Assembly: GCF_002909485.1 (NCBI RefSeq)
Contig: NZ_PPXG01000001.1
Span: 434,001 to 498,000, forward strand
Reading direction: 5' to 3'
From: Stutzerimonas stutzeri
Lineage (GTDB): Bacteria; Pseudomonadota; Gammaproteobacteria; Pseudomonadales; Pseudomonadaceae
Length of the DNA stretch: 64,000 bases
Shown here piece after piece: positions 29,227 through 54,574 of this stretch. Below the pieces are notes generated by a model. That model did not search any database. It had not been told where the DNA came from and saw nothing but the letters and a program-made list of their open reading frames with translations. Position numbers and translations under genes: made by a program. Position 1 is the first letter of the stretch, and the number at the start of each line of letters is the position of its first letter.

Positions 29227-29264
29227 TACAAGTGACGGGTGTATCTACCTGACAAGGAGTGGCG

Positions 29265-29960
29265 ATGGGCGGGTACCTGGCGGATGTGCTGGTCATCGAG
29301 GACGATCAGGTTCTGAACGCTCAGCTGGCTGAGCTACTGAGACTGCAAGGATATGCAGTGCGATCCAGCCTGTTGGGTGAAAGCGGACTGGCAATGGCAT
29401 TGGCCAGCGCGCCGGATCTGGTGCTGCTGGATGTCATGTTGCCAGACATGAATGGACTTTCAGTACTGCGCCGGCTGCGTGAACGGCAGCAAACGCCAGT
29501 GATCATGCTGACAGCGTGCGGCGCGGAGGAAGAGCGTATTCGCGGATTGCGGCATGGCGCGGACGACTATCTGGCCAAGCCTTTCAACCTGACCGAGCTG
29601 CAGCTACGTATCGATGCAATCCTGCGGCGTACGCGCAGCGCAGACCATCGTGTGACAGTGCCGTCGTCCCTGCAGGTTGATTCTCTGATTCTCGATCGCC
29701 ACAGCTTATGGGCGCGGGTTGGCGAGCATGATCTGGCGTTGACGCCGCTGCAGTTCCGGCTGCTCTGGCAATTTGTGCTCCAGCGCGGAGAAGTCCTCAG
29801 CAAACCTTACCTCTATCGAGTGGTTCTGGAGCGTGAGTACAGCGGCTACGACCGCAGCCTCGACATGCATGTCAGTCGCATTCGGCGCCGGTTGGGCGAG
29901 GCCGGGCTTGCCGCCGATCGTTTACAGACGCTTCACGGCCGCGGTTACAGCTTCCAATGA
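29265..29960 (+). CDS. OmpR-family response regulator (PfeR/PirR-like)
   Basis: 231 residues from the ATG at 29265, 5 nt after AAGGAG (a GTG at 29259 is the alternative). Receiver domain with acidic pocket EDD (12-14) and phospho-Asp56 in LVLLDVMLPD, and Lys in YLAKPF. It is followed by a winged-helix domain (about 130-231) ending GYDRSLDMHVSRIRRRLGE. It overlaps the kinase gene by 4 nt (ATGA). Position before a TonB-dependent receptor and the kinase's similarity to PfeS/PirS suggest control of ferric-siderophore uptake. Assignment to Pfe or Pir is not possible from sequence alone. Confidence 0.88.
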   Translation: MGGYLADVLVIEDDQVLNAQLAELLRLQGYAVRSSLLGESGLAMALASAPDLVLLDVMLPDMNGLSVLRRLRERQQTPVIMLTACGAEEERIRGLRHGADDYLAKPFNLTELQLRIDAILRRTRSADHRVTVPSSLQVDSLILDRHSLWARVGEHDLALTPLQFRLLWQFVLQRGEVLSKPYLYRVVLEREYSGYDRSLDMHVSRIRRRLGEAGLAADRLQTLHGRGYSFQ

Positions 29961-31297
29961 ACCGGCGCTTGTTCTGGAAGCTGTGCGTAGGGGTTGCGCT
30001 GGGCAGCGTAGCGCTGTTTTGGGTCATCGCGCGGCTCAGCGGTCAGGCCGAAGAGCAGATGAGTTTCATTGACGCCGAGCATCAGCACACGCTGCGCCAG
30101 TACGCGCAGCAAGCCGAGGCGCTCTACCGCGAGGGGGATGCTAAGGCGCTGCAGGATTGGCTGCGTTCCGTGCAACTGCAGGAGCAAACCTGGGCAGCGA
30201 TCGTCGAGCCGCACCTGCAGGCGCTGGCTGGCAGTGAGTTGTCCGAGCGGTTTCTCAGCGAATTCAGTCTGGGTCGAGACCCGTCGTGGAAGATTCACCT
30301 TTATTTCCAGGACAACCCGATCATGGACGTACCGTTCGCCGATGGGCAGCGGCGATTTCTGATCCAGCTGCCGCAACGTATGCGCCCCGGACATTACTGG
30401 TATCCCGCACGCCTGCTCCTGGAGCTGGTGTTGCCGCTGGTGTTGCTGGTGATCGGCTGCCTGTTGCTCTATCGCCATCTGATGCAGCCGCTGAATCGCC
30501 TGGAACAAGCAACCCGTCGATTCAGCGAAGGAGACTATGAAGCGCGGGCCGGTGCGCTGTTGGGCTCGCGTCGCGATGAACTGGCGGGGTTGGCCGAAAC
30601 CTTCGATGCGATGGCTGAGCGAATTGGCGGGTTGATCATCGATCAGCGTCAGCGCCTCGCCGAGATGTCTCACGAGTTGCGTACGCCACTGGCTCGTATC
30701 GAAATGGCGGTGGGGCTTGCCGAGCAGGGTGCGGACTCCGCTACCCTGTTGCCGCGTATACGCCAGGACTGCGCTGCGATGCGATGTCTGGTCGAGGATT
30801 CGCTAACGCTGAGCTGGCTCGAAACGGAGCGCCCCAGGTTGCGTGACGAGACGCTGGATCTGATCGATCTGCTGGATAGCATTCTTGATGACGCCCGCTT
30901 CGAATTCCCGGATCGCCATATCGACACGCAGCTTCCTACGGAGGCCGAGCTGGTTGGCAGCTGCCACCGTGCGCTTGGTCAGGCGATCGAGAATATAGTG
31001 CGCAACGCCCTCGACCACACGCCGCCTGGAGGAAGAGTACGCATTCATCTGCAAACCGTCCCCCAGGCCTATTGCCTTGAGATCATCGATCAGGGCCCTG
31101 GGGTGCCGGAGCAGTGGCTCGAGCGTATCTTCCTGCCGTTCGAGCGGCTGAGTGAAGATAGAGCCGGTTACGGCCTGGGCCTGGCGCTGGCGCAGCGTCA
31201 GGTACGTGCGATCGGCGGGAGACTGGCGGCGCGCAATGACGAGCAAGGTGGCTTGTGTATGGGGATCTGGCTGCCCCGCGAAGGGAGCGCTGCGTAA
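29957..31297 (+). CDS. Sensor histidine kinase (PfeS/PirS-like)
   Basis: 446 residues. Membrane helices near 8-27 and 152-172 flank a small periplasmic domain (about 28-150). HAMP follows (about 173-228), then HisKA with phospho-His239 in EMSHELRTPLARIEM, and an HATPase with N-box IENIVRNALDHTPP and G-boxes DQGPGVPEQ and GYGLGLALAQR. The N-terminus (RRLFWKLCVGVALGS, EEQMSFIDAEH) resembles the Pseudomonas kinases that sense periplasmic catecholate siderophore. It is coupled to the response regulator by an ATGA overlap. Confidence 0.88.
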   Translation: MNRRLFWKLCVGVALGSVALFWVIARLSGQAEEQMSFIDAEHQHTLRQYAQQAEALYREGDAKALQDWLRSVQLQEQTWAAIVEPHLQALAGSELSERFLSEFSLGRDPSWKIHLYFQDNPIMDVPFADGQRRFLIQLPQRMRPGHYWYPARLLLELVLPLVLLVIGCLLLYRHLMQPLNRLEQATRRFSEGDYEARAGALLGSRRDELAGLAETFDAMAERIGGLIIDQRQRLAEMSHELRTPLARIEMAVGLAEQGADSATLLPRIRQDCAAMRCLVEDSLTLSWLETERPRLRDETLDLIDLLDSILDDARFEFPDRHIDTQLPTEAELVGSCHRALGQAIENIVRNALDHTPPGGRVRIHLQTVPQAYCLEIIDQGPGVPEQWLERIFLPFERLSEDRAGYGLGLALAQRQVRAIGGRLAARNDEQGGLCMGIWLPREGSAA

Positions 31298-31344
31298 CAG
31301 TTGTAAAAGTGATTCTGCTGCTGCAGTCCTCCAGCGAGAATGAT

Positions 31345-31365
31345 GAATACGAAACGTTCGCATTC
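31345..31365. promoter_or_regulatory. Palindromic site before the TonB-dependent receptor gene
   Basis: GAATACGAA and TTCGCATTC flank ACG, giving 9-bp arms with one mismatch, 17 bp before the receptor start. It is a candidate binding site for the upstream response regulator. Confidence 0.5.
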
Positions 31366-31382
31366 TTGCTTCGAGGTCTTTC

Positions 31383-33338
31383 ATGCAACATTGTCCATGT
31401 CCGCGCGCGCTACTCGGGTCACTGTCGTTCGCCGCGCTTCTGACTACCGTGCCTTGCCAGGCTCAACCATCCGCACCTTTGGAGTTGAGCGGCACCGAGG
31501 TAACGGCGCGCCACGTGCAAGACGACAGCGTCGAATCCGAGCAGCTTCAGCATTACCAGGCGGCCGACCTGCAGGACGTGTTCGAGTCCAGTCCGGAGGT
31601 CTCTGTTGGCGGCGGCCCCGGCGTGGCTCAAAAGCTCTATCTGCGTGGCTTCGAGGATACCTTGCTCAACATCACCATCGACGGTGCCAGCCAGCCTGGG
31701 CAGACCTTCCACCATACAGGCCGTATTGGCATCGAGCCGGAACTGCTCAAGCGTGCCGAAGTGCGGGCCGGTACGGGCGATGCGACGTCGGGTCCCGGGG
31801 CTTTGGGTGGCTCGATTCGCTTCGTCACCAAGGATCCGGACGATCTGTTACGTGAGGGCGAGCGGGCTGGTGCGCTGGTAAAAGGTGGCTATTTCAGCAA
31901 CGCAGAGGGCTACAAGACCAGTACGAGCTTGTTTGGTCGGGTCAACGATGACTGGTCGGCATTGGCGGTGGCCACCTACCAGGATCAAAACGACTATGAG
32001 GATGGCAAGGGGCGCGATGTTCTCGGCACCGGAGCGCGGCAGCAACTGGGTTTCGCCAAACTGGTCGGGCGCCTGAGCGATGAGCAGACGCTGCGGTTGT
32101 CCTACGAAAAACGCACCGACGAAGGCGAACGCAGCCAGCGGCCGCAGTGGATCCCGAGTGGGTTCAATCCATTATTTCCGCTGGAAACGGAGCGCGAAAC
32201 CTGGACCTTGAACTACGGCTGGAATCCGCTGAGCGACGAGCTACTCGACCTCGAGGTTACGACCTATCACACCTCCACCGAGTTGCAGCAGGACGGACGC
32301 TGGGGACTGTACATCGGTGACACAACAAGTGCCGGACTGGACGTACGCAATACGAGTGAGTTTGGTGCTCATCGCCTGACTTATGGTGTCGATTATCGCG
32401 ATGACAAAACCAGCCTTGGCCCTGCTGGCGACCGCAAACTGGATGAGGAGGAGGGCAGCGTACTCGGCTTCTACCTCCAGAACAGTTATCAGGTCACGGA
32501 CAAACTGCTGCTCGGCATGGGTGTTCGCTATGATCGCTACCGTCTCGATGATCGTGACGGGCAGGATTTCTCGGACGCCGGCTTCAGCCCGAACGTGAAT
32601 CTGCGTTATCAACTGACGCCACAACTTGCGCTGCTCGCCGGTCATGCTCAGGCACTGCGTGGCGTGCAGGTACGCGACGCATTCAAGCTCGATGCCGCAG
32701 GTAACGACCCTGACCTTGATGCAGAAAAAGCGCGCACCAACGAGATGGGGATCGAGTTCCGCGAGGGCGGTCTGGAGCTGTCGGGCAAGCTCTACGACAC
32801 CCGTATCCGCGACGTGATCTATGACCCCAGCGGGCGACCCAATCTCTACGTGAACGGCGGCACGCTCAGAAGCCAGGGCGTGTTGTTGCAAAGCGCATAT
32901 CACTGGCAGCAACTGAGCATTGGACTGAGCTACCACCATAACGCCATCGAGCTCGATGGCGATGATCTGAACGTATACGAGCACAACGGCTTGGGCACGA
33001 CGCTTGGCGATACGTGGATAGGCTTTGCCGACTACCGTGCCAATGATGCGCTGAGTTTCGGCTGGCAGGGCCGCTTCGTCACCGCTGTGGACTCGCTACG
33101 CACTGGCGTCGGCAAGCTAGACAAACCCGGCTACGGCGTACACGACCTCTACGCCCAGTGGTCAGCGCTACCCAATGATCGGCTAGTGTTGAACCTGACA
33201 TTGAAGAATATTCTCGACAAGCAGTATCTGGACCACGCCAGCAACGAGGATTTCGAGCACATCCCGGGTTACGAAGGTGTGCGCGGCAGTTACGAGCCCG
33301 GCCGCGAGCTGCGCCTTGGTGTCGCGTTGCGGATCTGA
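31383..33338 (+). CDS. TonB-dependent outer-membrane receptor, siderophore type
   Basis: 651 residues: signal peptide (1-27, ending CQAQ), plug domain (about 45-160, with LYLRGFEDTLLNITIDGASQ and ATSGPGALGGSIRFVTKD), then a 22-strand barrel ending LRLGVALRI. It is shorter than the FepA/PfeA class (about 720) and close to haem or small catecholate receptors. The two-component pair just upstream and the palindrome before its start suggest ligand-induced expression. The ligand is not determinable by eye; iron-siderophore is the working guess because of the Fur box and the PfeS-like kinase. Confidence 0.85.
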   Translation: MQHCPCPRALLGSLSFAALLTTVPCQAQPSAPLELSGTEVTARHVQDDSVESEQLQHYQAADLQDVFESSPEVSVGGGPGVAQKLYLRGFEDTLLNITIDGASQPGQTFHHTGRIGIEPELLKRAEVRAGTGDATSGPGALGGSIRFVTKDPDDLLREGERAGALVKGGYFSNAEGYKTSTSLFGRVNDDWSALAVATYQDQNDYEDGKGRDVLGTGARQQLGFAKLVGRLSDEQTLRLSYEKRTDEGERSQRPQWIPSGFNPLFPLETERETWTLNYGWNPLSDELLDLEVTTYHTSTELQQDGRWGLYIGDTTSAGLDVRNTSEFGAHRLTYGVDYRDDKTSLGPAGDRKLDEEEGSVLGFYLQNSYQVTDKLLLGMGVRYDRYRLDDRDGQDFSDAGFSPNVNLRYQLTPQLALLAGHAQALRGVQVRDAFKLDAAGNDPDLDAEKARTNEMGIEFREGGLELSGKLYDTRIRDVIYDPSGRPNLYVNGGTLRSQGVLLQSAYHWQQLSIGLSYHHNAIELDGDDLNVYEHNGLGTTLGDTWIGFADYRANDALSFGWQGRFVTAVDSLRTGVGKLDKPGYGVHDLYAQWSALPNDRLVLNLTLKNILDKQYLDHASNEDFEHIPGYEGVRGSYEPGRELRLGVALRI

Positions 33339-33552
33339 ATGTATGCATGAAGGCTTGCGGTCGGATGACGACGATTGCGCGTGTTCCGGCAGCTCGCGCG
33401 GCTAGCAGGTGCCTCGCGGGCTGCAGTTGAAGCGCTCTCGGCACAGGCGCGACCGGTCATTCAGGCGGACACGCCGGCCCCTTCTAGGTTGTCCGCGGAT
33501 AGATGTGCCCCGCCGATCTCACAGCGAAGCGAAAGAGCTCGTCAGGGATGCA

Positions 33553-33873
33553 TCAGGGCGGGCTCGCTGCCTCGGGTACGTAGATCATTCTTCCGTCGTT
33601 CAGGCGGTAGGTGATGCCGGCTTTCGCTCCCTGGCCTTCGCCGATTTCCCCGCTGGATTCATATTGCGTCAGTTCCTGGCCTTCCTTGATCAGCATGCGC
33701 ATGTTTGTTTCGCCGGGGTTCTCGATGACCACGACCTTGTCCTGGCTGAACGGATTGAGCGGGTTTTGCACGATGACGATAAGCAGGATGCCGATCACTA
33801 CTAGGAACAGATCGATCAGGTTGACCACGGAAAGTAGCGGATCATCGTCGTCGTCATGGTCGAGAAAGCGCAT
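33553..33873 (-). CDS. DUF2149 membrane protein, last gene of the zinc operon
   Basis: 106 residues from the ATG at 33873; the longer frame upstream overlaps the ExbB-like gene and is not used. A very acidic start (MRFLDHDDDDDPLLSVVNLID) leads into one membrane helix (about 18-38), with a periplasmic C-terminal part. The layout (short cytoplasmic tail, one helix, periplasmic domain) is that of ExbD/TolR, so it may be the partner of the ExbB-like protein. Its ATG overlaps the upstream TGA (TGATG), indicating coupled translation. DUF2149 proteins are known next to CobN-like and MotA/TolQ-like genes; the biochemical role is not known. Confidence 0.82.
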   Translation of the reverse strand: MRFLDHDDDDDPLLSVVNLIDLFLVVIGILLIVIVQNPLNPFSQDKVVVIENPGETNMRMLIKEGQELTQYESSGEIGEGQGAKAGITYRLNDGRMIYVPEAASPP

Positions 33874-34349
33874 CAATGCAGCTCCACGGCACGTTCGATG
33901 GCGCGCAACTCCTGCAGTAGCCAGCGTCGCCGCACGGTAAGCACGTAGAAGGCGATGCTGGAGGCGACGAGCGCAAGAATCACGGCCGAAAAGGCGACCA
34001 CCAGGTTCTCGCCGATGCCTTTGGCGTCGCTCTCGGTGAGGGCGAGCAGGGCAGGTCCCATAGGGATCATGGTGGCGACAAGGCCGAGCATAGGCGCGCT
34101 GCGCGAGGTCACGCGCAGCCATTCGAGGCGCTGCATGATCCACAGCTCCAGATCATCACTGGTGCCGCCATGGATGGCCTGATGAGCAGCAAGTACCGAG
34201 CTGTAGCGGCCGCTGCGGCGTTGCCAAGCCTCCATGGCAAAGCTGCCCAGTGCAAGAAAGGCGTAAACCAGCGCAGCGAGGATTAGCAGCAAAACGGGCA
34301 CCAGAAAGATGCGGGTGAGTTCGTAGAGACTGGTTTCAAGTGCGTTCAT
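33873..34349 (-). CDS. ExbB/TolQ/MotA-family proton-channel protein
   Basis: 158 residues with three hydrophobic helices (about 14-36, 85-105 and 116-138). The conserved family stretch is in the second half: SRSAPMLGLVATMIPMGPALLAL and IGENLVVAFSAVILALVASSIAFYV, where ExbB/TolQ carry GLxGTVxGI and TALxTTxxGL. These proteins use the proton-motive force to drive TonB or Tol complexes. It overlaps the CobN-like gene by 4 nt (ATGA) and the DUF2149 gene at its end, so the three should be made together. No TonB gene is present in the operon. Confidence 0.86.
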   Translation of the reverse strand: MNALETSLYELTRIFLVPVLLLILAALVYAFLALGSFAMEAWQRRSGRYSSVLAAHQAIHGGTSDDLELWIMQRLEWLRVTSRSAPMLGLVATMIPMGPALLALTESDAKGIGENLVVAFSAVILALVASSIAFYVLTVRRRWLLQELRAIERAVELH

Positions 34350-37300
34350 TGGATGGGGTTCTTTCGGTCAGGAGTGGTAGCGATACGACGGTTGGCGAGT
34401 GCCTGACGCACTGCGCCGAGCAGCAGGCAAATGAGTAAGGCAGCGATGCCGAGGGCGAGTCGCCATGGGCTGGGTGCCTCGCTCGGTTGTTCGGCGACCT
34501 CCTGCATCACCTGCCCACGTACGGTCTCGCCTGGCATGGTGGCGTCAGAGGCGGGTGCGTCCGGCGAAGGCTGTGGCGCGTTGAGAGCGAGTCCGTACCC
34601 AATGGCCATCTGTTCAATGAATTCACGGGTCGCCGGTTCGCCTGTGTCGGCGCCGTGGTCACGGGTCAAGGCCTGCCAACGCTCGGTCAGCTCGCGGCGG
34701 GTCTCCTCGGATGCGTCCCAGTAGCCTTTGCGGATCGCCTCGACCATGCGCTCGATAAGCTGCGCCTGGGCGGTGGGGTTGTTGTCTTGGAACCATTGGC
34801 TCAGACCGAGCTCACGCTGGTCCTTGACGAAGGTGTCATGCAAGGCCTGCCATTGATCAGCGCGAACCATGCTTCTGTCAGCTGCTTGCCAGCCCCACAG
34901 ATTGTTGGCGACGTTGAGTATCTCTAATGTTCCGGCGTAGCCCTCCTGTTGCATGGCAGTGATCCATTGCGGGTTCAGGTAGCGGCTGCGCAGCTCTCGG
35001 GCGAGATAACTCGCCGCCCCAGTAGTCCGCGGTTCGCTTTTGCGTAGATCAGAGATATAGAGCGATGGGCTGGTGCCGTCGAGATGACGGATCGCCAGAG
35101 ACAGCCCGCCGAGAAACTCGAATGGATGATCCGTAGAAAGCACGCCATTCAGCTCGCTGGATCGGGCCATCACCGCCGCCTGGACACCCTTGAGTTGCTC
35201 AGCGAACAGGTTCTGACCGTCTATCTTTTCTCCCCAGCTCCTGGTGCCATAGCCATATTGCAGTCGTGAGAGGAATTGGTCGGCGAGCTGCGCCTCATCT
35301 TCCCATCGGGTCGAGTCAAGGGTGAGTTGAGATACGCCGGTACCGTAATCGCCAGGCTCATTGCCAAACAGCCGTAGCTGAGACAGTTGTTCTGCGCTAT
35401 CGGCATCGACGCCCTGGTCGCTTAGCCGTTGGGCCAGGGCTCTGCTATTGCTGGCCAGTACGTTGCCAGGCTCGTCGAGCGCCGCGAGCTGTTCAACCAC
35501 ATCGGCGAGCAAGCGCATGAAACCATCGAACTGGTCGCGATAAACGCTGGTGACCTGTACGACGACATCGATGCGCGGCCTGCCAAGTTCCGCTGCCGGA
35601 ATAATCTGCAGCGCACGCACGCGTCCCCCGGTGTCCCAGACCGGCCGTACTCCCAGGGCATGCAGGATCTGACTTTCGAGGACGCCGAGATGGCGCATGG
35701 CTTCCGACGACCACAGACTGAAGGCAAGCTTTTGCGGCGTCTCGCCTTCGTGTTCCTCCCGGTAGCTCGCAAGCAGCTGCTCCAATGCCTTGCCGCCGGC
35801 CTCGTATGCTGTACGGGTCGGTAGTTTGTCTGCTTCAAACGCGTACAGGTTGCGCCCGCTTGGTACGTCTGGGTTGCGTACCGGGTCGCCGCCGGGGCCG
35901 GGGGCAATGAAGCCGCCGGCCAGGCCGGCCAGCAGTGCTTCGATTTCACCCGTCTCGGCCAGATTGGCGTCCAGATCGATTGCTCGCACGATTTGTTCGC
36001 GCAGACCTGGGTCATTGATCGAACCAGCTTGTTCGCCATTCCGAAGAAAGCGTTGCAGGGTGCGGTAGGGCAGACTCTTTTGCAGACCTGTGAAGTCTTC
36101 GGCCAGCGGTTCATCTTCGCTCAGCTTCAGCGCCTGCAGAAACTGCGGTCCCAGCTGCTGTAGCACTGTGGCCAGGCGGTGCTCTGGCGACGCCGCTTCG
36201 CCAAAGGTGTGTAGGCCCAGTGGCACATTCGCCTCGGCCATGTCGTGCAATCTATCGTGCAGCGCCTGAAGGAAGCCGTCTGGCTCGGTGTGCGTTCGCT
36301 CTTCGTTCCAGCCCAGGTCATCGAGCATCCGACTTTGCAGCGCTAGCTGCCGGATACGCTCGACAGTGGCGTCGCGTACCGCGCCCTGATCGAGTTGCTG
36401 GTATTCGTGAATCAGTGCGTGCAGCTCTCGCAGCTCGTCGTAAAGACCGGCTGGGGCGAAAGGCGGCGTTTGGTGACTGATGATCACCGCACGACCGCGA
36501 CGACGTGCCTGAATCGCCTCGCCGATATTGTCCTGAATATAGGGGTAGAACACTGGCAGGTCGCCTAGCGCCAGGAAGGGGTAGTCGCCGGCCGCCAGCC
36601 CTTTATCCTTGCCGGGCAACCACTCCTGGGTCCCGTGAGTGCCAAAGTGGATCAGTGCGTCGGCCTTGAAGCCGACTCGCAGCGCCTGATAAGCCGCCAG
36701 ATAGAGGTGGTCCGGTGGGATCTTGCTGTCGTGATAAGCCTCGCCCGGGCGGCCGGCCCGCGGCGGTTGCGGTAGCAGCAATAACTTACCGAGGCGCGCG
36801 GCCGGAATCACGAAGTGCAGTGCTCCATCGATCTCGCGCAATGCCCAATGTGCCGCGGGATCACCCCAGCGCTCGTTCAGCGCGTGGCGGTCATGTTCGG
36901 GTAGGGTTGCCAGCCAGCGTTGGTATTGGTCCAACGACAACGTCAAGGCGAAGCCGTCAGCTAGCAATGTATCCAGTGTTTCCGGGCGGTAGTAACCGCC
37001 GAGCAGGCGCTGCGCGGTTTCGATCAGCTCACTTTCATCGCTGGGCAGCACGTCATAACCGGTTTGGCGCAATGCCAAGGAGAGCCGCGCCAGGCTGCGC
37101 GGCACGTTCAGATTTGATGCGGAAATGTTCTTTGCACCGTCGGGGTGGTTCCAGAACATCACGGCCAGGTGCTTTTCGGCCGGAGTCAGCCGGCGAAGAC
37201 GAGACAGGCTGGCGACCTTGCCGAGTAGGGCCTCGAGCTGCTCCGGGATCGGCGTAGGCTCGCCATTCTCGATAGCGGCGATCACCAGTGGATCGGTCAT

Positions 37301-38254
37301 GCCCCAGCTTTCCGGTACGGTCAGCATCGTCGCGGCGGTACGTGGCGTTACCCCGCTACTGGAGGCTCGCCAATGTGCCCGGTCCCCCTCGCGCCAGGTG
37401 AGAGTCGATAACACGGGGATACCTAGCGCCAGGAATTCCGCCTGTCGAGCTGTACCGTTCTGCATGTGCTGCAGGTTGACCAATACCTCACTGCGAGCCG
37501 GCACGAGAACCTTGCTAAGCGCTTGTGGGTCTTTGTCATCCGCCCAGAATGCCAACGGTGCCTGACCACGGGCCTCGCTACGGCGGATGAGCTCATCGAT
37601 CAGCTGAAGTTGGCCGTCGACCAGGGCACCGCGATGGATCGCGAACGCTACCCGTGGTGCCTGGGGCGTCCAGCGTTCGGCTCCCCAGGCTAGATAGTCG
37701 TCCAGAACTTCGAATGGGCCAGGTGCATCAGGATGGTGGAAACCCGTGCTGGCGAGCTCGGTCGGGGGCGCAATGGACTCATTTTCAGCTCCGTCGTGCC
37801 GGGCGCGAAGGTAAGCGAACAGGTTTCGCAGGTTTTGCTCGCCGCCGTTTTCGTAGTATCCGATCAGCAGCCTCGCCTCGGCGGCGGGCAAGTTACCGGA
37901 CGCGGGGGCGCCACCGCCTATGCGTATCCACGGTGTAGTAGTCGCGCTGAGTCGGTCGCCGAGCGCCTGCTGAACGGCGCTTAGGTCGGCGGGCCTAGGC
38001 GTATCCAGGATCAGTAGGGCAGCAGTTTCGTCCAGCCCCTTAGCGAAGGCGGCAGAGGATACCCGCGTACTACTCAGCGTAACGCCCGATTCGTTCGCCC
38101 AGCTGGCAAGCCGATCGAGCTTGCCTTGCAGCACGAAGTCGGTTGTCACGACCTGTACCCGAAGCGCCCTCGGCTGCGCTGGCTCGGCAAAGGCAAGCGC
38201 ACCCCAGCCGGCCAGCGCCAGGATGAGCAGGCTGGTTTGGATCAGGCAGTGCAT
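34346..38254 (-). CDS. CobN-like chelatase subunit with signal peptide and C-terminal membrane anchor
   Basis: 1302 residues. CobN and ChlH are the large porphyrin-binding subunits of cobalt and magnesium chelatases and are normally soluble cytoplasmic proteins. Family signatures are clear: FWNHPDGAKNISASNLNVPRSL, HFGTHGTQEWLPGKDKGL, LPVFYPYIQDNIGEA, and the C-terminal WITAMQQEGYAGTLEI. Here the N-terminus is a signal peptide (about 1-23, ...WGALAFA) and a membrane helix lies near 1268-1287, followed by a basic tail. The bulk should therefore face the periplasm. Neighbours are a TonB-dependent receptor and ExbB-like and DUF2149 genes, not CobS/CobT. P. aeruginosa has a similar zinc-starvation cluster (PA1922-PA1925). 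A role in stripping or handling metal after import is inference. Confidence 0.87.
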   Translation of the reverse strand: MHCLIQTSLLILALAGWGALAFAEPAQPRALRVQVVTTDFVLQGKLDRLASWANESGVTLSSTRVSSAAFAKGLDETAALLILDTPRPADLSAVQQALGDRLSATTTPWIRIGGGAPASGNLPAAEARLLIGYYENGGEQNLRNLFAYLRARHDGAENESIAPPTELASTGFHHPDAPGPFEVLDDYLAWGAERWTPQAPRVAFAIHRGALVDGQLQLIDELIRRSEARGQAPLAFWADDKDPQALSKVLVPARSEVLVNLQHMQNGTARQAEFLALGIPVLSTLTWREGDRAHWRASSSGVTPRTAATMLTVPESWGMTDPLVIAAIENGEPTPIPEQLEALLGKVASLSRLRRLTPAEKHLAVMFWNHPDGAKNISASNLNVPRSLARLSLALRQTGYDVLPSDESELIETAQRLLGGYYRPETLDTLLADGFALTLSLDQYQRWLATLPEHDRHALNERWGDPAAHWALREIDGALHFVIPAARLGKLLLLPQPPRAGRPGEAYHDSKIPPDHLYLAAYQALRVGFKADALIHFGTHGTQEWLPGKDKGLAAGDYPFLALGDLPVFYPYIQDNIGEAIQARRRGRAVIISHQTPPFAPAGLYDELRELHALIHEYQQLDQGAVRDATVERIRQLALQSRMLDDLGWNEERTHTEPDGFLQALHDRLHDMAEANVPLGLHTFGEAASPEHRLATVLQQLGPQFLQALKLSEDEPLAEDFTGLQKSLPYRTLQRFLRNGEQAGSINDPGLREQIVRAIDLDANLAETGEIEALLAGLAGGFIAPGPGGDPVRNPDVPSGRNLYAFEADKLPTRTAYEAGGKALEQLLASYREEHEGETPQKLAFSLWSSEAMRHLGVLESQILHALGVRPVWDTGGRVRALQIIPAAELGRPRIDVVVQVTSVYRDQFDGFMRLLADVVEQLAALDEPGNVLASNSRALAQRLSDQGVDADSAEQLSQLRLFGNEPGDYGTGVSQLTLDSTRWEDEAQLADQFLSRLQYGYGTRSWGEKIDGQNLFAEQLKGVQAAVMARSSELNGVLSTDHPFEFLGGLSLAIRHLDGTSPSLYISDLRKSEPRTTGAASYLARELRSRYLNPQWITAMQQEGYAGTLEILNVANNLWGWQAADRSMVRADQWQALHDTFVKDQRELGLSQWFQDNNPTAQAQLIERMVEAIRKGYWDASEETRRELTERWQALTRDHGADTGEPATREFIEQMAIGYGLALNAPQPSPDAPASDATMPGETVRGQVMQEVAEQPSEAPSPWRLALGIAALLICLLLGAVRQALANRRIATTPDRKNPIQ

Positions 38255-38255
38255 A

Positions 38256-40217
38256 TCAGAAACTCAGATTCACGCCGACGTGGTAAGTCCGGCCGGGTTC
38301 GGCGAAGCCGAAATTGTCGGACACATCGCTGAAGTCTTCGTCAGTGAGGTTTTCGATGCCGCCTCGAATGCTGAGATTTTCGGTGATGCGCTGGGTCAGT
38401 TCCAGGTGCCACAGGCTGTAGGCCGGCACTGCATAGGCGGTATTGCTGGAGTAGGTCAGCTGGCTGCCTACGTATTCGCCACGCAGTTGCCCGGTAAAGC
38501 GGGCGTTCGGTGTCCATTGCATTCGGGTGTTGGCCAGATGCCGAGCGCGATCACCCAGCCTGCGGTCGCCGCTACGGTCGATGGCGTCCAGATAGGTGTA
38601 GTTCAGATCCCAGCGCAGGTTGGCTGGTAGATCCAGGCCGCCACCCAGCTCGAGGCCGCGGATACGCGCCTTGTCGACGTTATCGTAGTTGCGTATCTCG
38701 CGGCCACGTTGGCCACAGCTCGCCACGCACACGGTCTGGATCAGGCCGCGAACGTTGTTCTGGAACAGCCCAGCATTCAGCGACCAGCCGTTCGCCTGGT
38801 AGTCTGCGCTGAGCTCATAGGTGGTGTTCGTTTCGGGTTCGAGGTCTGGATTCCCGAAAATAGTGAACATTCCGCCGCCGCCAACGGCCGAATAGCCTGG
38901 CGACAGCTGCTTGAGCGATGGCGCCTTGAAGCCGCGGCCGCCGCCACCCTTGATCGTCAGTTCATCGTTGACGTGATGGACGAGGTAGGCGCGCGGGCTG
39001 TTGTGCCAGCCATATTCCTCGTGGCGGTCAAAACGATTCCCCAGTACCAGCGACCAGGAAGGATCGAACTCGATTTCGTCCTGCAGAAACAACGCGCGAT
39101 GAATGATGCTCGCATCGCCGGTAGCGAATCCTCCGTCCTCCAGTTGCTCGTTGCGCCATTCGCCACCGAGCGTCACCAGGTGCATGTCGGCCACCGGCAT
39201 ACTCAGGCTGCCGTCGACGATATCGTCGGTGAGTTCCTGGCGCGGCGAAGTGGGAATGACATCGTTGGTAAAGCGGTTGTTACGCTCCAGGGTGTTGCGA
39301 TAGGCGCGAAGCGAGCTGGCGCCCCACGACCAATCGCCACTATGGGCGACGGAGAATCGTTCGCGCTCGATGCGATCGCTGGCCTCGTAGTCGACAGGCC
39401 TAGCACCTGCACGGCGCGTATTGCGCCAGCGATCTTCCAGCCCGTTGGCGTAGGTTAGGTCGATTCGCTGAGCGGCGTCTGGCGTCCAGCTCAGAGAGAC
39501 GCTGCCGCTATGGGCATCACGGCCTTCGATTTCCGACAGGGCTGCATCACGATGTAGGGGCGTTTCCTGCCGTCGCCGCGTCTCGCCGCTCAGTGACAGG
39601 CCCAGCACATCAGGTATCAGCGGGCCGCCGGTATACACACCCAGCTGGTGCGTCTGGCCGCCCCGATCATCCTCGCGCACGCCACCATTGAGCTGTGCCG
39701 CACCATGCCAGGCGTCCGTGCTGCGACGGGTAATGACGTTGACCACACCACCAAGCGCCTCGGAACCGTAGAGCGAGGACATCGGCCCGCGTATCACCTC
39801 GATTCGCTCGATGGCCTCCACCGGAACCCAGCCTAGATCGAAATCGGCATGGGCGACGGCGCCGCCGGCGGTATTGATGCGCTGTCCATTCACCAGCACC
39901 AACGTGTGCTCGCTCCCCATGCCGCGAATGCTCACACCGCGGCGAGTCATGCCGATGCCGGTGAATTGCAAACCTGGTGTGCCACGCAGGGCATCCTCCA
40001 GATCTTGAACCGGACGCAGGGTCAATTCCTCGTGAGTGATTACGGTAACGCTCGCCGGCGCATCGTTCAGCTGACGCACCGTAGAGGTTGCAGTGACGAC
40101 GGTGGGCTTCAGATGCAGCGCGTTGTCGGCGCCCAGCGCTGCCAGAGGCAGGCAAGCCAGAACGGAGAAGAGTCGAGCTGGGGAGCAAAGATCAGGAGTG
40201 CTGAAACGGCGGAACAT
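38256..40217 (-). CDS. TonB-dependent outer-membrane receptor (BtuB/CirA-like) of the zinc operon
   Basis: 653 residues: signal peptide (about 1-29), TonB-box-like TVVTAT (39-44), plug domain (about 50-165, with VSIRGMGSEHTLVLVNGQRI and MSSLYGSEALGGVVNVITRR), and a barrel ending in the insertion signal VGVNLSF with C-terminal Phe. The stop codon is 1 nt from the CobN-like start, and rpmE2 is 76 bp upstream. The shared Zur-type palindrome before rpmE2 suggests that it imports a zinc chelate. BtuB-like receptors also carry cobalamin or colicin-type ligands, so the substrate is open. Confidence 0.88.
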   Translation of the reverse strand: MFRRFSTPDLCSPARLFSVLACLPLAALGADNALHLKPTVVTATSTVRQLNDAPASVTVITHEELTLRPVQDLEDALRGTPGLQFTGIGMTRRGVSIRGMGSEHTLVLVNGQRINTAGGAVAHADFDLGWVPVEAIERIEVIRGPMSSLYGSEALGGVVNVITRRSTDAWHGAAQLNGGVREDDRGGQTHQLGVYTGGPLIPDVLGLSLSGETRRRQETPLHRDAALSEIEGRDAHSGSVSLSWTPDAAQRIDLTYANGLEDRWRNTRRAGARPVDYEASDRIERERFSVAHSGDWSWGASSLRAYRNTLERNNRFTNDVIPTSPRQELTDDIVDGSLSMPVADMHLVTLGGEWRNEQLEDGGFATGDASIIHRALFLQDEIEFDPSWSLVLGNRFDRHEEYGWHNSPRAYLVHHVNDELTIKGGGGRGFKAPSLKQLSPGYSAVGGGGMFTIFGNPDLEPETNTTYELSADYQANGWSLNAGLFQNNVRGLIQTVCVASCGQRGREIRNYDNVDKARIRGLELGGGLDLPANLRWDLNYTYLDAIDRSGDRRLGDRARHLANTRMQWTPNARFTGQLRGEYVGSQLTYSSNTAYAVPAYSLWHLELTQRITENLSIRGGIENLTDEDFSDVSDNFGFAEPGRTYHVGVNLSF

Positions 40218-40293
40218 CTAATCATCTTCCTTGGCTGATTGGGTGTAGCGATGCAAGCCGCACCGGCAGGGCGACTTTGCATCCGAGGGTGCA

Positions 40294-40551
40294 TCAGTTC
40301 TTTTTCGCGAAACCGGCGAAGCGCTTGTTGAAGCCGGCAATGCGGCCTTCGGTGGTGGTTTTGCGCTGTTTGCCCGTGTAGATCGGGTGCGACGCACTGG
40401 AAACATCGAGCGCGATATACGGGTAGGTATTGCCGTCCGTGTGCTGCTGGGTGCGATTGGTGTCGGCGGTCGAACCGATCAGAAAAAAGACGTCCGCCGC
40501 GGTGTCGTGAAACAGCACTGGGCGGTAGTCGGGATGGATACCTGGTTTCAT
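40294..40551 (-). CDS. rpmE2: 50S ribosomal protein L31 type B (zinc-independent)
   Basis: 85 residues. Type B L31 lacks the zinc-ribbon cysteines (there is no Cys in the protein) and replaces the zinc-binding type when zinc is scarce, freeing metal from ribosomes. Family signature: [28 protein letters not shown] and the C-terminal [23 protein letters not shown] lies upstream of the ATG at 40551. It is the first gene behind a Zur-type palindrome and is followed by the receptor/CobN-like genes, so the whole run reads as one zinc-starvation operon. Confidence 0.95.
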
Positions 40552-40593
40552 GAGTCCGTCCTTTCAGGAAGTACAATGTCGATGTCAGAAACA

Positions 40594-40608
40594 CGTTATA
40601 ACATAACG
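40594..40608 (-). promoter_or_regulatory. Zur-type operator of the zinc operon
   Basis: CGTTAT-AAC-ATAACG is a perfect 6-3-6 palindrome matching the core of proteobacterial Zur boxes (GTTATA-type arms). It lies 43 bp before the rpmE2 ATG; on the minus strand it contains TATAAC, a good -10, so bound Zur would block the promoter. Confidence 0.75.
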
Positions 40609-40991
40609 ACAATGAGGCGAGCGAGACCCCACTGGTGCTTAGCTGGGTGAAGCAGGGTAGGTATCGGAAAGGTAGCCTTGCCGCAAACCCATACGCATGT
40701 CGGGTGTAGTGGTGGGTGACTGAATGCGATATCGCGATGAGCGATCAGACGTTCTGCTCGTGATGCTCACTGCTCGACAGATTGGCAGTCAGCAGACGCA
40801 TGCGTCAGGTCAGGTCAGGTTACATATTGCGGATGTAGGTAATTGCGGAGTGGGGCGCGGTTCTGGATGAGCCCTGCAATCTCACCAGAAGCACCGCGAT
40901 GACATTCCGGTTATCCCATTTGAAACAGGGGGCGCCTAGGTAATTCCTTCAGGCTTATCTGGGCGCCTGTTCGCTGGTTTTCGCTATACGG
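40609..40991. other. Gene-free stretch between the zinc operon and ohr
   Basis: 383 bp between the rpmE2 promoter and the end of ohr. It holds three tandem copies of CAGGT (40808-40822) and a GGCGCC repeat pair (40931-40936 and 40960-40965) that could form the ohr terminator. No coding frame was accepted. Confidence 0.45.
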
Positions 40992-41417
40992 TCACTTCAA
41001 CACCAGCCGCACGTCGATATTCCCGCGCGTTGCATTGGAGTAGGGGCAAACCTGATGCGCCGCGTCGATCAGGCTTTGAGCCAGATTACGGTCAAGCCCA
41101 GGCAGGCTGATCTGCAGCTCGACTTCCAGGCCGAAGCCCCCGGGGATCTGGCCAATACCGACATTGGCGGTAACGGCGGTCTCAGCCGGCAGCGCCTGTT
41201 TCTGTTGGCCCGCGATGAACTTCATTGCCCCGATGAAGCAAGCCGAGTACCCGGCCGCAAACAGCTGCTCCGGGTTGGTCGCTTCGCCGCCTTGGCCACC
41301 CAGCTCGCGAGGAGTGCTGAGGTTGACATCCAATGCACCGTCAGACGATAAGGCTCGGCCGTCGCGACCTCCAGTGGTGGTTACGGTAGCGGTATAGAGA
41401 GCTTGGATGGATTGCAT
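40992..41417 (-). CDS. ohr: Organic hydroperoxide resistance protein
   Basis: 141 residues from the ATG at 41417. Ohr is a thiol peroxidase that reduces lipid and other organic hydroperoxides with lipoylated partners. The two reactive cysteines are in YSACFIGAM (about Cys60) and [12 protein letters not shown] (about Cys124). The frame runs 59 codons further upstream across the operator, but that part is not coding. The gene is directly downstream of ohrR on the same strand and is preceded by a perfect OhrR-type palindrome, so induction by organic peroxides is expected. Confidence 0.95.
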
Positions 41418-42006: not shown

Positions 42007-42645
42007 GATCGAAGAGGTCAGAGCGAGGTGAGCCGTAACGTTATCGCCCAAACTCTTGGGGCGCAAATGTAATGCACTGCTGACGACGGTAGCGACGATG
42101 CATCCGTACATTCTTGCAGAGTCATCTATTCCGTTGAAAAAACGAATGCATAAAGGCAGAACTGAAATCAGTGAGCCTTGCTTATCGTTCTTTGCAAAAT
42201 TGCATTCAACAGATTAGTTGGCGCTTATGACATCTTTTCGGTGTGATGGTGTTTTCAGCACGAAATAAAAACCGATCTCGATGCGGTTTTCTACAAAAGT
42301 GCTGCGCTGTAATTTTAGCGATTCTATAACCTTTAATTTCGTCGCTTACAGCGCCGCAAGTGGAACCCCAAGCATACCGTCTGTCGGCACTTTTCTTGGT
42401 CTTCGTGACTTCATTTTTCACGAAGGTATTAATCCTATGTTTGTGAAAGCCCATCAATACAAGCCTACGGCATTGATTCAAAACATTTCTACCTATCTTA
42501 GGGATTAATTCTCAATCACTTATTTTGCGCTATTTCTCAATATATTTTTATAGAATGAAATGGGTGGCGAATTCTCAATCTGACGTGACTTATTCCTGTG
42601 GCTAGACTGCCGATCGAGATTAACTCGTTGCTCAAGAGGCCAGGC
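42007..42645. promoter_or_regulatory. AT-rich region upstream of nirK with repeated TTCTCAAT
   Basis: About 640 bp, visibly richer in A+T than its surroundings. TTCTCAAT occurs three times (42509-42516, 42534-42541, 42572-42579), all within 140 bp of the nirK start. A hairpin AAAACCG/CGGTTTT (42268-42290) may be a terminator remnant. No perfect TTGAT-N4-ATCAA box was found. A minus-strand frame at 42206-42481 looks like chance. Confidence 0.5.
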
Positions 42646-44025
42646 ATGCGTCATTTATCAATAGCCTTATTGCTCGCGTTGCTTGTTTTACCTACTGCCC
42701 TTTGGGCGCAGACGAAATCCAGTAGCGATGTAAGTTATCGACCCGACGTCACGATTACATTGAGGACGGATATTGCTGACGGAAAGCTCGTTTACGTTAG
42801 TGAATCCGGCCCTACTCGTGGGCAAGTGAACCCCGAACTACGGGTTCCCGAAGGCGCCGTGGTGCAAATCAACTTGATAAACGGCGACGGCGCGGTTCAT
42901 GACATAGCGGTGCCGGAATTCGATGCCGGCTCCGGTGAGATTTCCGGGAAGGGTTCCGCGACTGCAATCGTGTTTCGCGCTACCAAAAGTGGAACCTTCG
43001 AGTATTACTGCACGCTTCCAGGGCACAAGGCCGCCGGTATGTTCGGGAAGTTCATCGTTGGAGATGGCCCAGAGACGGTCGTCGAACAGGGCAAGGACCT
43101 TTCCAAGGACCCGACACAGGTCGGTGAGCCGGTCGGCAGTCGCGAACCGAAGAGCATCACCCTCGACTTGCGGACCACCGAGGAGGAGGGGCGGTTGAGC
43201 GATGGCAGCACCTACAAGTTCTGGACCTTCGACGGCACGGTGCCCGGGCCGATGGTGCGCATTCGCGAGGGCGATACCGTCACGTTGAATCTCAGCAACG
43301 AGCCTGACAGTGCGCATATCCATTCCATCGATCTGCATGCGGTGACCGGTCCCGGTGGCGGCGCCGCGGTCACTCAGGTTGCGCCTGGGCAGACCCGTTC
43401 GTTCACCTTCAAGGCGTTACAGCCAGGCCTCTACGTCTATCACTGCGCCACACCGATGGTTGCGCAGCACATCAGCAACGGCATGTATGGGTTGATTCTG
43501 GTCGAGCCCGAGGGCGGGCTACCGAAGGTCGACCACGAGTTCTATGTGATGCAGGGCGAGCTGTACACGGCAAACCCGAGAGGAGCCCGCGGGCTGCATG
43601 AGTTCTCGCTGGACATGCTACTGCGCGAGACGCCGCAACATCTGATGTTCAATGGTTCGAAGGACGCTCTCACCAGTATCCATAAGATGGAAGTCAACAC
43701 CGGTGACAGCGTGCGCATCTTCTTTGGTGTCGGCGGCCCGAACCTGATTTCCAGCTTCCATGTGATTGGTGAAATCTTCGACAAGGTCTTCGATCAGGGG
43801 TCGCTCTCCAGCCCGCCACTGACGGATGTGCAGACGACCCTCGTGCCGGCCGGCGGCGCCACCATGGTCGAGTTCGTCGCGGACTACCCAGGCAAGTACA
43901 TCCTGGTGGACCACGCCTTGTCGCGCGCAGAGAAAGGCCTGATGGGTGTGTTGACGGTGAAGGGCGATGCGGACGCTTCGATCTTTTCCAGCCCCGAACC
44001 GATTGACCCGCATTCCGGGCACTGA
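42646..44025 (+). CDS. nirK: Copper nitrite reductase with extra N-terminal cupredoxin domain
   Basis: 459 residues from the ATG at 42646 (AAGAGG upstream, signal peptide 1-22 ending LWA); a GTG at 42598 would spoil the signal peptide. NirK reduces nitrite to NO in the periplasm. The core (about 165-455) has type-1 ligands His226, Cys267, His of AQHISNGMYG and its Met, type-2 ligands His231 and His266 plus the His of VDHALSRAEKG, and the catalytic Asp229. Residues about 30-145 form another cupredoxin with a complete type-1 site: His85, Cys122, His127, Met132. Normal NirK is about 340-380 residues. This layout resembles the Hyphomicrobium denitrificans enzyme; the extra domain probably relays electrons. 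Confidence 0.93.
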   Translation: MRHLSIALLLALLVLPTALWAQTKSSSDVSYRPDVTITLRTDIADGKLVYVSESGPTRGQVNPELRVPEGAVVQINLINGDGAVHDIAVPEFDAGSGEISGKGSATAIVFRATKSGTFEYYCTLPGHKAAGMFGKFIVGDGPETVVEQGKDLSKDPTQVGEPVGSREPKSITLDLRTTEEEGRLSDGSTYKFWTFDGTVPGPMVRIREGDTVTLNLSNEPDSAHIHSIDLHAVTGPGGGAAVTQVAPGQTRSFTFKALQPGLYVYHCATPMVAQHISNGMYGLILVEPEGGLPKVDHEFYVMQGELYTANPRGARGLHEFSLDMLLRETPQHLMFNGSKDALTSIHKMEVNTGDSVRIFFGVGGPNLISSFHVIGEIFDKVFDQGSLSSPPLTDVQTTLVPAGGATMVEFVADYPGKYILVDHALSRAEKGLMGVLTVKGDADASIFSSPEPIDPHSGH

Positions 44026-44068
44026 GAGCGGTTTCCCATACTGCAGCTGATGCTGCAAAGGAGAAGGC

Positions 44069-44194
44069 ATGCAGGCTCGAAAGTTATATGGCCCATTGAA
44101 GATTCTGAGTGTTGTCGTACTCGCGCTGATGTTTGGCGCAATGCTCTACGCGTTCACGATGACGCTCATTCACTGGACAGGCATCAATGTCTGA
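44069..44194 (+). CDS. 41-residue membrane peptide between nirK and norC
   Basis: ATG at 44069 behind AAAGGAGAAGG, an excellent ribosome binding site; 41 codons to TGA. A short basic N-terminus (MQARKLYGPLKIL) precedes one hydrophobic helix (about 12-34) and a short tail ending HWTGINV. It starts 43 bp after nirK and ends 9 bp before the norC ATG, so it fits between them as a translated gene. I do not recognise a family. A small accessory subunit for the NO-reductase or an assembly factor is possible, as in other haem-copper oxidases with single-helix peptides; this is inference. Confidence 0.7.
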   Translation: MQARKLYGPLKILSVVVLALMFGAMLYAFTMTLIHWTGINV

Positions 44195-44203
44195 GGGCAC
44201 GCC

Positions 44204-45046
44204 ATGAACAACCGCCAAGCGAGGCTCTTCGCGATTGCCGCAACCGGTGTGGCCACGCTCGTGTTCATCGGGCTGACAGTGGACAGTCACCGGCAGTTTC
44301 CAAAACTGACCAATGCCGAGAACATCACCGCGGAGGTCAAACACGGGATGGATGTCTGGCATAAGTACAACTGCATCAACTGCCACACGCTGTTCGGTGA
44401 GGGGGCCTACTACGCGCCTGATCTGACCAAGATCACCCAGCACCGCGGCGAGCCTTATCTCAAGGCTTATATGCGCGATCCATCGAAGTTCTATGACGAG
44501 AAGATCCATCGTCGCCTGATGCCCAAGCAGGATCTGGCGGAAGATGAAATCAGCGATCTAATCGCTTTTCTCGACTGGGTGAGCAAAGTCGATAACCAGG
44601 GCTGGCCACCTCGACCGATCCTGGTCACCGGTAGCTTCGTTCCGGGTGCCGACACTGGTGGTGGGCAGCGTGACGACCTGCCGGCGGGCGCGCGCCCGGT
44701 GGATGCTGACGATGACGAGCGTGCGTTGGGCGAGCAGGTGTTTCGCTCTGCCGTGCCTGCGTGCAACGCCTGCCACTCCATCGCGCCCGGGGCCAACATG
44801 GCAGGACCGACGCTGGCAGGGCTTGCCACCCGTGCGGCGGAGATCGTGGCATCTCCCGACTACCAGGGCCAGGCCAGCGATGCTCGCGGCTATATTCGCG
44901 AGTCCATCGTGGACCCTAGTGCGCACATCATTCCCGGCGCTATGTACTCAGCCGACGGCACGTCATTCATGCCAACGGGTTATGACAAGAGCCTGACGGA
45001 CGAGCAGATCGATCAGCTGACGGCCTATCTCGAAACACTCAAGTGA
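44204..45046 (+). CDS. norC: Nitric oxide reductase subunit C fused to a second c-type cytochrome domain
   Basis: 280 residues; typical NorC has about 145. Residues 1-145 are NorC: membrane anchor (about 8-26), haem motif CINCH (57-61) and Met106 (RRLMPKQ). After a Gly/Asp-rich linker (about 146-172) comes another class-I cytochrome c domain with CNACH (187-191) and Met256 (SFMPTGY), reaching the C-terminus. Both haems should face the periplasm. The start ATG has GAGG upstream. It is followed by norB, norQ and norD in the usual order. The second haem would be an electron entry module. Confidence 0.92.
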   Translation: MNNRQARLFAIAATGVATLVFIGLTVDSHRQFPKLTNAENITAEVKHGMDVWHKYNCINCHTLFGEGAYYAPDLTKITQHRGEPYLKAYMRDPSKFYDEKIHRRLMPKQDLAEDEISDLIAFLDWVSKVDNQGWPPRPILVTGSFVPGADTGGGQRDDLPAGARPVDADDDERALGEQVFRSAVPACNACHSIAPGANMAGPTLAGLATRAAEIVASPDYQGQASDARGYIRESIVDPSAHIIPGAMYSADGTSFMPTGYDKSLTDEQIDQLTAYLETLK

Positions 45047-45105
45047 CACGCGTACGGCCAAGCCTAATTCGGCCCGACCCACGTTCGCTTTAAGGGGAAA
45101 CTACG

Positions 45106-47285: not shown

Positions 47286-47288
47286 ACC

Positions 47289-54500: not shown

Positions 54501-54574
54501 TCATAGCCGGGCGCCTGACCGATCTGAGCGTGTTGCTGAGCGGCCTAGACATACGCAGTCGTGACTTTCGCTGA
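51497..54574 (+). CDS. dnaE2: Error-prone DNA polymerase DnaE2
   Basis: 1025 residues from the ATG at 51497, the usual DnaE2 length and shorter than replicative DnaE. Order: PHP domain (about 5-200, [17 protein letters not shown]), palm with catalytic Asp371 and Asp373 in [14 protein letters not shown], and a C-terminal OB fold ([27 protein letters not shown]). It extends primers past lesions together with ImuA/ImuB under SOS control. The operon is compact (5-bp gap, then a 4-nt overlap), so the LexA box at 49360 governs all three genes. Confidence 0.96.

Follow-up and report, generated by a model that had tools for sequence, protein, structure and literature searches.

Organization of the operon

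The 64-kb stretch of a Stutzerimonas stutzeri contig analysed here (the window; genome size 4.80 Mb) contains a series of five genes encoding the type B ribosomal protein L31, a TonB-dependent receptor, a CobN-like chelatase homologue, an ExbB-like protein and a DUF2149 protein, all preceded by a palindrome resembling the binding site of the zinc regulator Zur. The features of this putative operon are as follows.

40595-40608, strand not assigned, Zur-type palindrome, fitting the published Pseudomonas aeruginosa Zur consensus GWWAYWNNNTWHCR
40294-40551, minus strand, rpmE2, type B ribosomal protein L31 (NF002462, 124 bits against a cut-off of 86)
38256-40217, minus strand, TonB-dependent outer-membrane receptor (PF00593, PF07715; nearest NCBIfam model CirA, under its cut-off)
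34346-38254, minus strand, CobN-like class I chelatase homologue (HmuS-type) of 1302 aa (PF02514, 1026 bits)
33873-34349, minus strand, ExbB-like proton-channel family protein (HmuU-like; PF01618, 26.1 bits against a cut-off of 22.9)
33553-33873, minus strand, DUF2149 protein (HmuV-like; PF09919, 98 bits)

All five genes lie on the minus strand of the window, and their positions and spacing, as described in the initial annotation, were borne out by the gene annotation: the receptor and CobN-like genes are separated by 1 nucleotide (nt), the CobN-like and ExbB-like genes overlap by 4 nt, and the ExbB-like and DUF2149 genes by 1 nt. The palindrome is located 43 bp upstream of the ATG of rpmE2, whose product is Cys-free (sequence checked by eye); a second L31 copy on contig C22 contains four Cys. 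Rather more space, 76 nt, separates rpmE2 from the receptor gene. A stem fold without a T run is predicted for this gap, no terminator-like site was found on its coding strand, and no sigma-70-like promoter was found within 33300-41000. Co-transcription of rpmE2 with the four downstream genes is possible.

For comparison, a sample of 82 operons was used, consisting of the best 80 of 167 named loci, the window and a second set on contig C28. The leading position of rpmE2 was recovered in just 8 of the 82, namely the window and seven Stutzerimonas loci.

The CobN-like protein has an HmuS-type site

A search of the PDB returned HmuS as the best match to the CobN-like protein (9d26, E = 1.5e-135), followed by CobN (7c6o, E = 1.8e-121). 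HmuS is a published heme dechelatase, in which His538 and His1209 lie on opposite sides of the cavity, a hydrogen bond links Glu1212 to His1209, and the exchange His538Ala abolishes heme conversion (PMC12583661). Equivalent positions and further conserved elements of the window protein were located as listed below.

36635-36637, minus strand, codon of His540, equivalent of HmuS His538 (structure match and alignment)
35117-35131, minus strand, codons of Asp1042-His1043-x-x-Glu1046, equivalents of HmuS Asp1208/His1209/Glu1212 (structure match and alignment)
37466-37468, minus strand, codon of His263, aligned with the HmuS heme ligand His254 (alignment)
34496-34525, minus strand, linker stretch TVRGQVMQEV, conserved ahead of the C-terminal helix (alignment, 40 rows)
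34409-34465, minus strand, C-terminal hydrophobic helix of the CobN-like protein (hydropathy)

As to the heme ligands of HmuS, His263 aligns with His254, while Met79 could not be placed in the alignment. The exact HmuS motif LSLDHxxEFMGG was not matched, the window protein having LSTDHPFEFLGG instead. A hydrophobic stretch is also present at the N-terminus (hydropathy alone). In the 40 aligned rows, a V-x-G-Q-like stretch ahead of the C-terminal helix and G-A-x-x-Q near the helix end recur, which might represent a contact site for the ExbB-like and DUF2149 proteins.

Sorting 128 aligned proteins by their site motifs, with possession of D-H-x-x-E defining the class of the window protein, yielded 81 D-H-x-x-E proteins, nine D-D-x-x-Q proteins (including the one from C28), 11 proteins with GRHS and N/D-D-x-F-D, 17 CobN, six ChlH, one HmuY-linked HmuS and three unclassed sequences (two truncated, one archaeal CobN). 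The D-H-x-x-E site occurs in 79 of the 82 proteins of the operon sample. Within the class, the equivalent of His540 is present throughout (81/81) and that of HmuS His254 is a His in 76 of 81; at three loci (L042, L044 and L046; one Alcaligenaceae, two Advenella) Met takes the latter position and the strict Zur box is missing. The 17 aligned CobN sequences show GKHG and mostly S-D-D-Y-x-Q, compared with GTHG and T-D-H-P-F-E in the window protein. A FastTree phylogeny of 126 of the 128 proteins (two short ones were dropped) placed the midpoint root between CobN, ChlH and the archaeal CobN (24 proteins, support 0.989) and all others (102 proteins, support 0.88).

The own genome gave no match to CobT and four weak, under-cut-off matches to the ChlID-type model TIGR02442, CobS and ChlI having had no separate search. 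A true CobN of B12 synthesis was rejected because of the site residues, the missing CobT match and the gene neighbours, despite the NCBIfam name; the "CobN" of the operon is probably not a B12 cobaltochelatase.

The likeness to HmuS extends to the gene set. In Porphyromonas gingivalis and Prevotella intermedia, PMC10434189 gives hmuYRSTUV as HmuY, receptor, CobN, hypothetical protein, ExbB family protein and DUF2149, and the same order is present on a Bacteroides finegoldii plasmid. Compared with the proteins encoded there, the window's DUF2149 protein shares 39% identity with HmuV (E = 6e-24), the ExbB-like protein 28% over 74 aa with HmuU (E = 1e-14), the receptor 24% with HmuR (E = 1e-37), and the CobN-like protein 26-34% in two stretches with HmuS (BLAST). 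Neither hmuY nor hmuT is among the operon genes, no further widely conserved neighbour emerged from the 82 loci, and HmuT showed no useful similarity to DUF2162. The window set is hmuR-S-U-V-like but lacks hmuY and hmuT. Its chelatase homologue shares the metal-facing residues of HmuS and differs in two cleft residues that are reported as strictly conserved (see below). Since HmuY, HmuT and these two pocket residues are missing, we place the protein in a sister class of HmuS rather than in HmuS itself. The initial annotation had proposed a chelatase-like protein that takes the metal from its carrier, a suggestion which the HmuS-type site supports and sharpens; its remark that the mechanism is undescribed does not wholly hold, given a published heme dechelatase in a matching gene set.

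The ExbB-like/DUF2149 pair tracks the chelatase homologue

For gammaproteobacterial and plasmid loci, ExbB-like genes were counted within a distance of 6 kb; in the 82-operon sample, any position in the locus was accepted provided that the strand was the same. The gammaproteobacterial set comprised 369 genomes, 42 of them with a match, from 39 of which 40 regions were used. Such a gene was found near 79 of 81 D-H-x-x-E genes (both misses lying on cut contigs), 9 of 9 D-D-x-x-Q genes, the single HmuS gene and 10 of 11 GRHS-class genes (the miss being a B12 cluster on a Marinobacter plasmid), compared with 0 of 17 CobN loci, three of which had less than 1.5 kb on one side, and 0 of 6 ChlH loci. 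Pooled, this amounts to 99 of 102 HmuS-side homologues versus 0 of 23 CobN/ChlH loci, as seen with a search model built from the window's class, which a very divergent ExbB could escape. As for the unclassed proteins, both truncated ones have an ExbB-like gene beside them and the archaeal CobN has none.

The DUF2149 protein has a membrane Asp that is invariant in 78 of 78 sequences:

33811-33813, minus strand, codon of the membrane residue Asp21 of the DUF2149 protein

The ExbD family PF02472 does not match DUF2149, and profile comparisons with hhalign were weak (P = 0.0029 and 5e-4; 0.03 for the riboswitch class described below). The partner protein of the GRHS class carries NLVDIMLV (NLADIMLV in one case) and appears ExbD-like by eye, the profile comparison again being weak. 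Searches of the PDB with the DUF2149 and ExbB-like proteins gave nothing useful, and the structure model of DUF2149 was of too low quality for use (mean predicted local distance difference test score 66.9, predicted template modelling score 0.31). In PMC9425974, DUF2149 appears among the entries of a methanogen set as linked to TolQ; in the Methanosarcina acetivorans genome, used as a control, PF09919 and PF02514 were both matched.

Plasmid pGLOV01 of Trichlorobacter lovleyi encodes, behind two cobalamin riboswitches, a receptor, DUF2162, ExbB-like, DUF2149 and CobN proteins, followed by ExbB, ExbD, TonB and a second receptor. Because of this additional TonB-ExbB-ExbD set and the linkage of 99/102 versus 0/23, we suspect that the ExbB-like/DUF2149 pair serves the dechelatase and not the receptor. 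The initial annotation had read the operon as an import system with its own energiser. A dedicated energiser for the receptor is doubtful because the operon's genes include no tonB, the ExbB-like gene tracks the chelatase homologue, the receptor family is swapped in at least five loci, and Trichlorobacter has TonB-ExbB-ExbD besides.

A conserved Zur-type box argues for zinc control

Of the 82 operons, 78 were used for scanning the 400 bp upstream (four were excluded because they were cut or their start could not be placed), with expected numbers taken from Markov shuffles. A strict match to the P. aeruginosa consensus precedes 55 of the 78 operons versus 1.4 expected, which makes a chance origin of the palindrome unlikely; with one mismatch allowed, the count is 71 of 78 versus 21.4 expected. 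A first placement of starts had given strict matches in 50 of 72 operons, the better anchored one being used here, and a Zur weight matrix was abandoned in favour of the published consensus since it mixed two palindrome registers. By class, the strict box was found at 55 of 75 D-H-x-x-E versus 0 of 3 D-D-x-x-Q operons (Fisher p = 0.023, uncorrected for kinship). The window itself has one further consensus match, at 58065.

Searched in the own genome with at most two mismatches allowed, ATGTTATANNATAACAT gave eight places and its reversed control none. Of seven proteins scanned near these places, two matched DksA and FolE2 over cut-off; a zinc ABC ATPase of AztA type and a receptor of ZnuD type, truncated by the locus end, stayed under it. 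The others were two receptors of siderophore type and a regulator of AraC type. Furthermore, PA1922-PA1925 of P. aeruginosa are reported to be 45-147 fold up in a znuA mutant, in which exbB1/2, exbD1/2 and tonB1-3 showed no significant rise. This conserved box, the zinc-type genes beside similar palindromes and the published induction make zinc control of the operon well supported. Of the claims of the initial annotation on this point, the Zur-type palindrome ahead of rpmE2 was confirmed, and PA1922-PA1925 are indeed published as a zinc-responsive set.

Proposed function and alternative explanations

Taken together, we consider it rather probable that the operon encodes an uptake system for zinc starvation of the same general plan as the HmuR-S-U-V heme system of Bacteroidota, with a dechelatase-type protein and a proton-driven unit. 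Under zinc shortage, Zur would release the operon, and the receptor would bring into the periplasm a ligand that carries zinc, probably a metallated ring of tetrapyrrole type and perhaps a zinc porphyrin. The membrane-anchored HmuS-type protein would grip this ligand between His540 and His1043, with Asp1042 and Glu1046 as partners, and strip the metal from it, and the freed zinc would enter the cell through ordinary zinc permeases. The ExbB-like and DUF2149 proteins are predicted to form a proton-driven unit in the inner membrane that belongs to the chelatase homologue and might drive it instead of an AAA+ motor of the kind used by CobN and ChlH.

Several observations weigh against this reading. 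The NCBI CobN equivalog model NF004644 scores the window protein at 2043 bits (cut-off 1248), and by BLAST it is at a roughly similar distance from an actinobacterial CobN (420 bits) and a Bacteroides HmuS (288 and 174 bits). Gln1198 and Trp1202, published as strictly conserved cleft residues of HmuS, are both replaced: the former by Ser or Thr in 81 of 81 D-H-x-x-E proteins (Ser1032 in the window), the latter by His in 57 and Asn in 21 of 81 (Asn1036 in the window); the ligand is therefore probably not heme itself. In at least five loci, all alphaproteobacterial, the receptor slot is filled by another TonB receptor, and the three of five scanned with NCBIfam gave siderophore receptors as best matches, under cut-off, and thus no pointer to a porphyrin ligand. 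Heterologously expressed HmuS is reported to be active with NADH, which speaks against an obligatory HmuU/HmuV motor, and a legend of the same EMBO J. paper assigns HmuU/HmuV the role of powering the receptor. Regarding zinc control, the strict box is missing in 20 of 75 D-H-x-x-E operons, loci L124 and L125 have no such box in front, and the window box differs from ATGTTATANNATAACAT by three mismatches, hence its absence from the eight genomic places. A review describes Zur control of PA1922 as confined to P. aeruginosa within its Pseudomonas survey; its scan of 150 bp upstream would, however, miss the box in the window and the seven Stutzerimonas loci because rpmE2 lies between box and receptor.

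An alternative that we regard as unlikely is a free-zinc importer, in which zinc ions or a simple chelate enter through the receptor, the ExbB-like and DUF2149 proteins act with a TonB encoded elsewhere to supply the receptor with energy, and the role of the CobN-like protein is limited to zinc binding or transfer. This model resembles what has been published on PA1922-PA1925, agrees with the EMBO J. legend and would also account for an ExbB family protein adjoining the receptor in most loci. It leaves the HmuS-type site unexplained, however, and is hard to reconcile with the presence of the ExbB-like gene at 99 of 102 HmuS-side loci versus 0 of 23 CobN/ChlH loci, with an operon devoid of tonB and with the separate TonB-ExbB-ExbD of Trichlorobacter. 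A heme dechelatase supplying iron or porphyrin, and only incidentally under Zur, seems improbable: HmuS is the closest solved relative, the His254 equivalent is mostly kept and a heme-type receptor gene (31383-33338, under cut-off) adjoins the operon, but the Zur-type box, the zinc regulon neighbours, the replaced Gln1198 and Trp1202 and the missing HmuY and HmuT all point elsewhere. Handling of cobalt or cobalamin, with a cobaltochelatase recruited so that cobalt replaces zinc, has been suggested in published papers and would suit the NF004644 name and the cobalamin riboswitches before related classes, but with no cobalamin riboswitch found in the window and both the CobN residues and CobT missing, it is very improbable.

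Returning to the zinc dechelatase-type system, a wider scheme can be put forward tentatively, which we consider less likely than not: a family of membrane-anchored periplasmic class I chelatase homologues may have given up the ATP-driven AAA+ motor of CobN/ChlH for a proton-driven ExbB/DUF2149 motor and may run in reverse, removing iron (Hmu) or zinc (this operon, under Zur) from scavenged tetrapyrroles and doing a corrinoid-related job in the riboswitch class, the zinc branch being a zinc dechelatase and zinc porphyrins such as zinc coproporphyrin serving as bacterial zinc sources. The zinc coproporphyrin idea draws on the title and the start of the abstract of one paper, in which the terms zincophore, zinc uptake and zinc acquisition are all absent. 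By analogy with the removal of iron from heme by HmuS, the operon raises the possibility that certain bacteria obtain zinc by taking it out of a molecule they scavenge. Published descriptions of the P. aeruginosa counterpart treat it as a zinc importer that includes a putative cobaltochelatase; the link to HmuS gives a concrete reaction, the release of zinc from a ring-shaped ligand, and names residues to change.

Related classes, distribution and neighbouring genes

The second set, on contig C28, consists of receptor, CobN-like, ExbB and DUF2149 genes without rpmE2 (L005 8428-15256) and is located behind a Pseudomon-groES RNA element and groESL (groESL identified by eye). No Zur-type box was found there even with one mismatch, and its CobN-like protein has the D-D-x-x-Q site without an equivalent of His254. 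In the GRHS class (GRHS; N-N-D-x-F-D), the CobN-like proteins are long and their genes have ExbB-like neighbours. Seven of its 11 loci were scanned (L133, L137, L142, L144, L152, L157 and L158), five of which have cobalamin riboswitches; L157 has a thiamine pyrophosphate riboswitch and L137 neither type.

The nearest named relatives of the window's CobN-like protein are from Stutzerimonas, with 75-79% identity in seven of eight loci and 66% in the remaining one. Within the genus, DUF2149 was matched in 29 of 56 genomes, in 27 of them over cut-off; ten of the 29 show only a weaker match (24-42 bits, eight over cut-off), possibly to the partner of another class. Two possible recent origins were rejected: region 33000-41000 has no near plasmid match, and the CobN-like protein has no match on viral contigs.

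Beyond the core genes, the widest neighbour cluster of the 82 loci (LysR-like by eye) reached 15 loci, and a cluster with a tonB gene three. In Azospirillum brasilense Sp7 (L178 5673-5924), the receptor match before cobN covers the last 84 residues only, with exbB and DUF2149 kept; locus L016, also from A. brasilense, has a long receptor match. In the window, the heme/hemoglobin-type receptor gene mentioned above follows response regulator and sensor kinase genes (29259-33338) and is convergent with the operon end. In two further stretches (42598-49310 and 50088-54574), genes for a copper nitrite reductase that carries an additional cupredoxin-type domain, for an AAA protein of CbbQ/NirQ/NorQ type and for a VWA protein are followed by an IMS gene of ImuB type and a DNA polymerase III alpha gene whose position suggests a DnaE2-like identity.

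Comparison with known systems

With TonB-ExbB-ExbD, the window system shares a channel of the ExbB family as well as a single-helix partner whose membrane Asp is invariant, but it differs in having no TonB in the operon and a DUF2149 protein without PF02472 match and with weak profile similarity. CobN and ChlH share PF02514 and the HxGxHG histidine with the window protein; they differ in their other site residues, have no ExbB-like gene at 23 of 23 loci and work with AAA+ partners, as published accounts describe.

Another close counterpart is PA1922-PA1925, for which the literature gives receptor, CobN-like, ExbB/ExbD-like and hypothetical genes, a Zur site and induction by zinc shortage; in the window the set follows rpmE2. 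This comparison uses the published descriptions of PA1922-PA1925. Papers on these genes attribute uptake of zinc or cobalt to them and call one of them CobN-like or a cobaltochelatase gene; in a published table PA1923 is listed as cobN2. In the accessible literature on PA1923 or PA1922 and zinc, searched apart from preprints and most subscription papers, no link to HmuS was seen, and the HmuS papers name Pseudomonas in their reference lists only; an earlier published link could exist. Induction of PA1922-PA1925 by zinc starvation was known already; what is new here is the proposed connection of this "CobN" type to an HmuS-type dechelatase.

The Hmu operon, with HmuS (9d26), likewise combines a TonB receptor, a chelatase homologue with a bis-His/Glu site, an ExbB-like and a DUF2149 protein in one operon. 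HmuS dechelation is reported to be ATP-independent and to require NADH and the membrane fraction. The window system differs by the lack of HmuY and HmuT, by a chelatase homologue of 1302 instead of 1469 aa and by the replacement of Gln1198 and Trp1202, and by its Zur-type box, the Hmu genes being published as iron-responsive.

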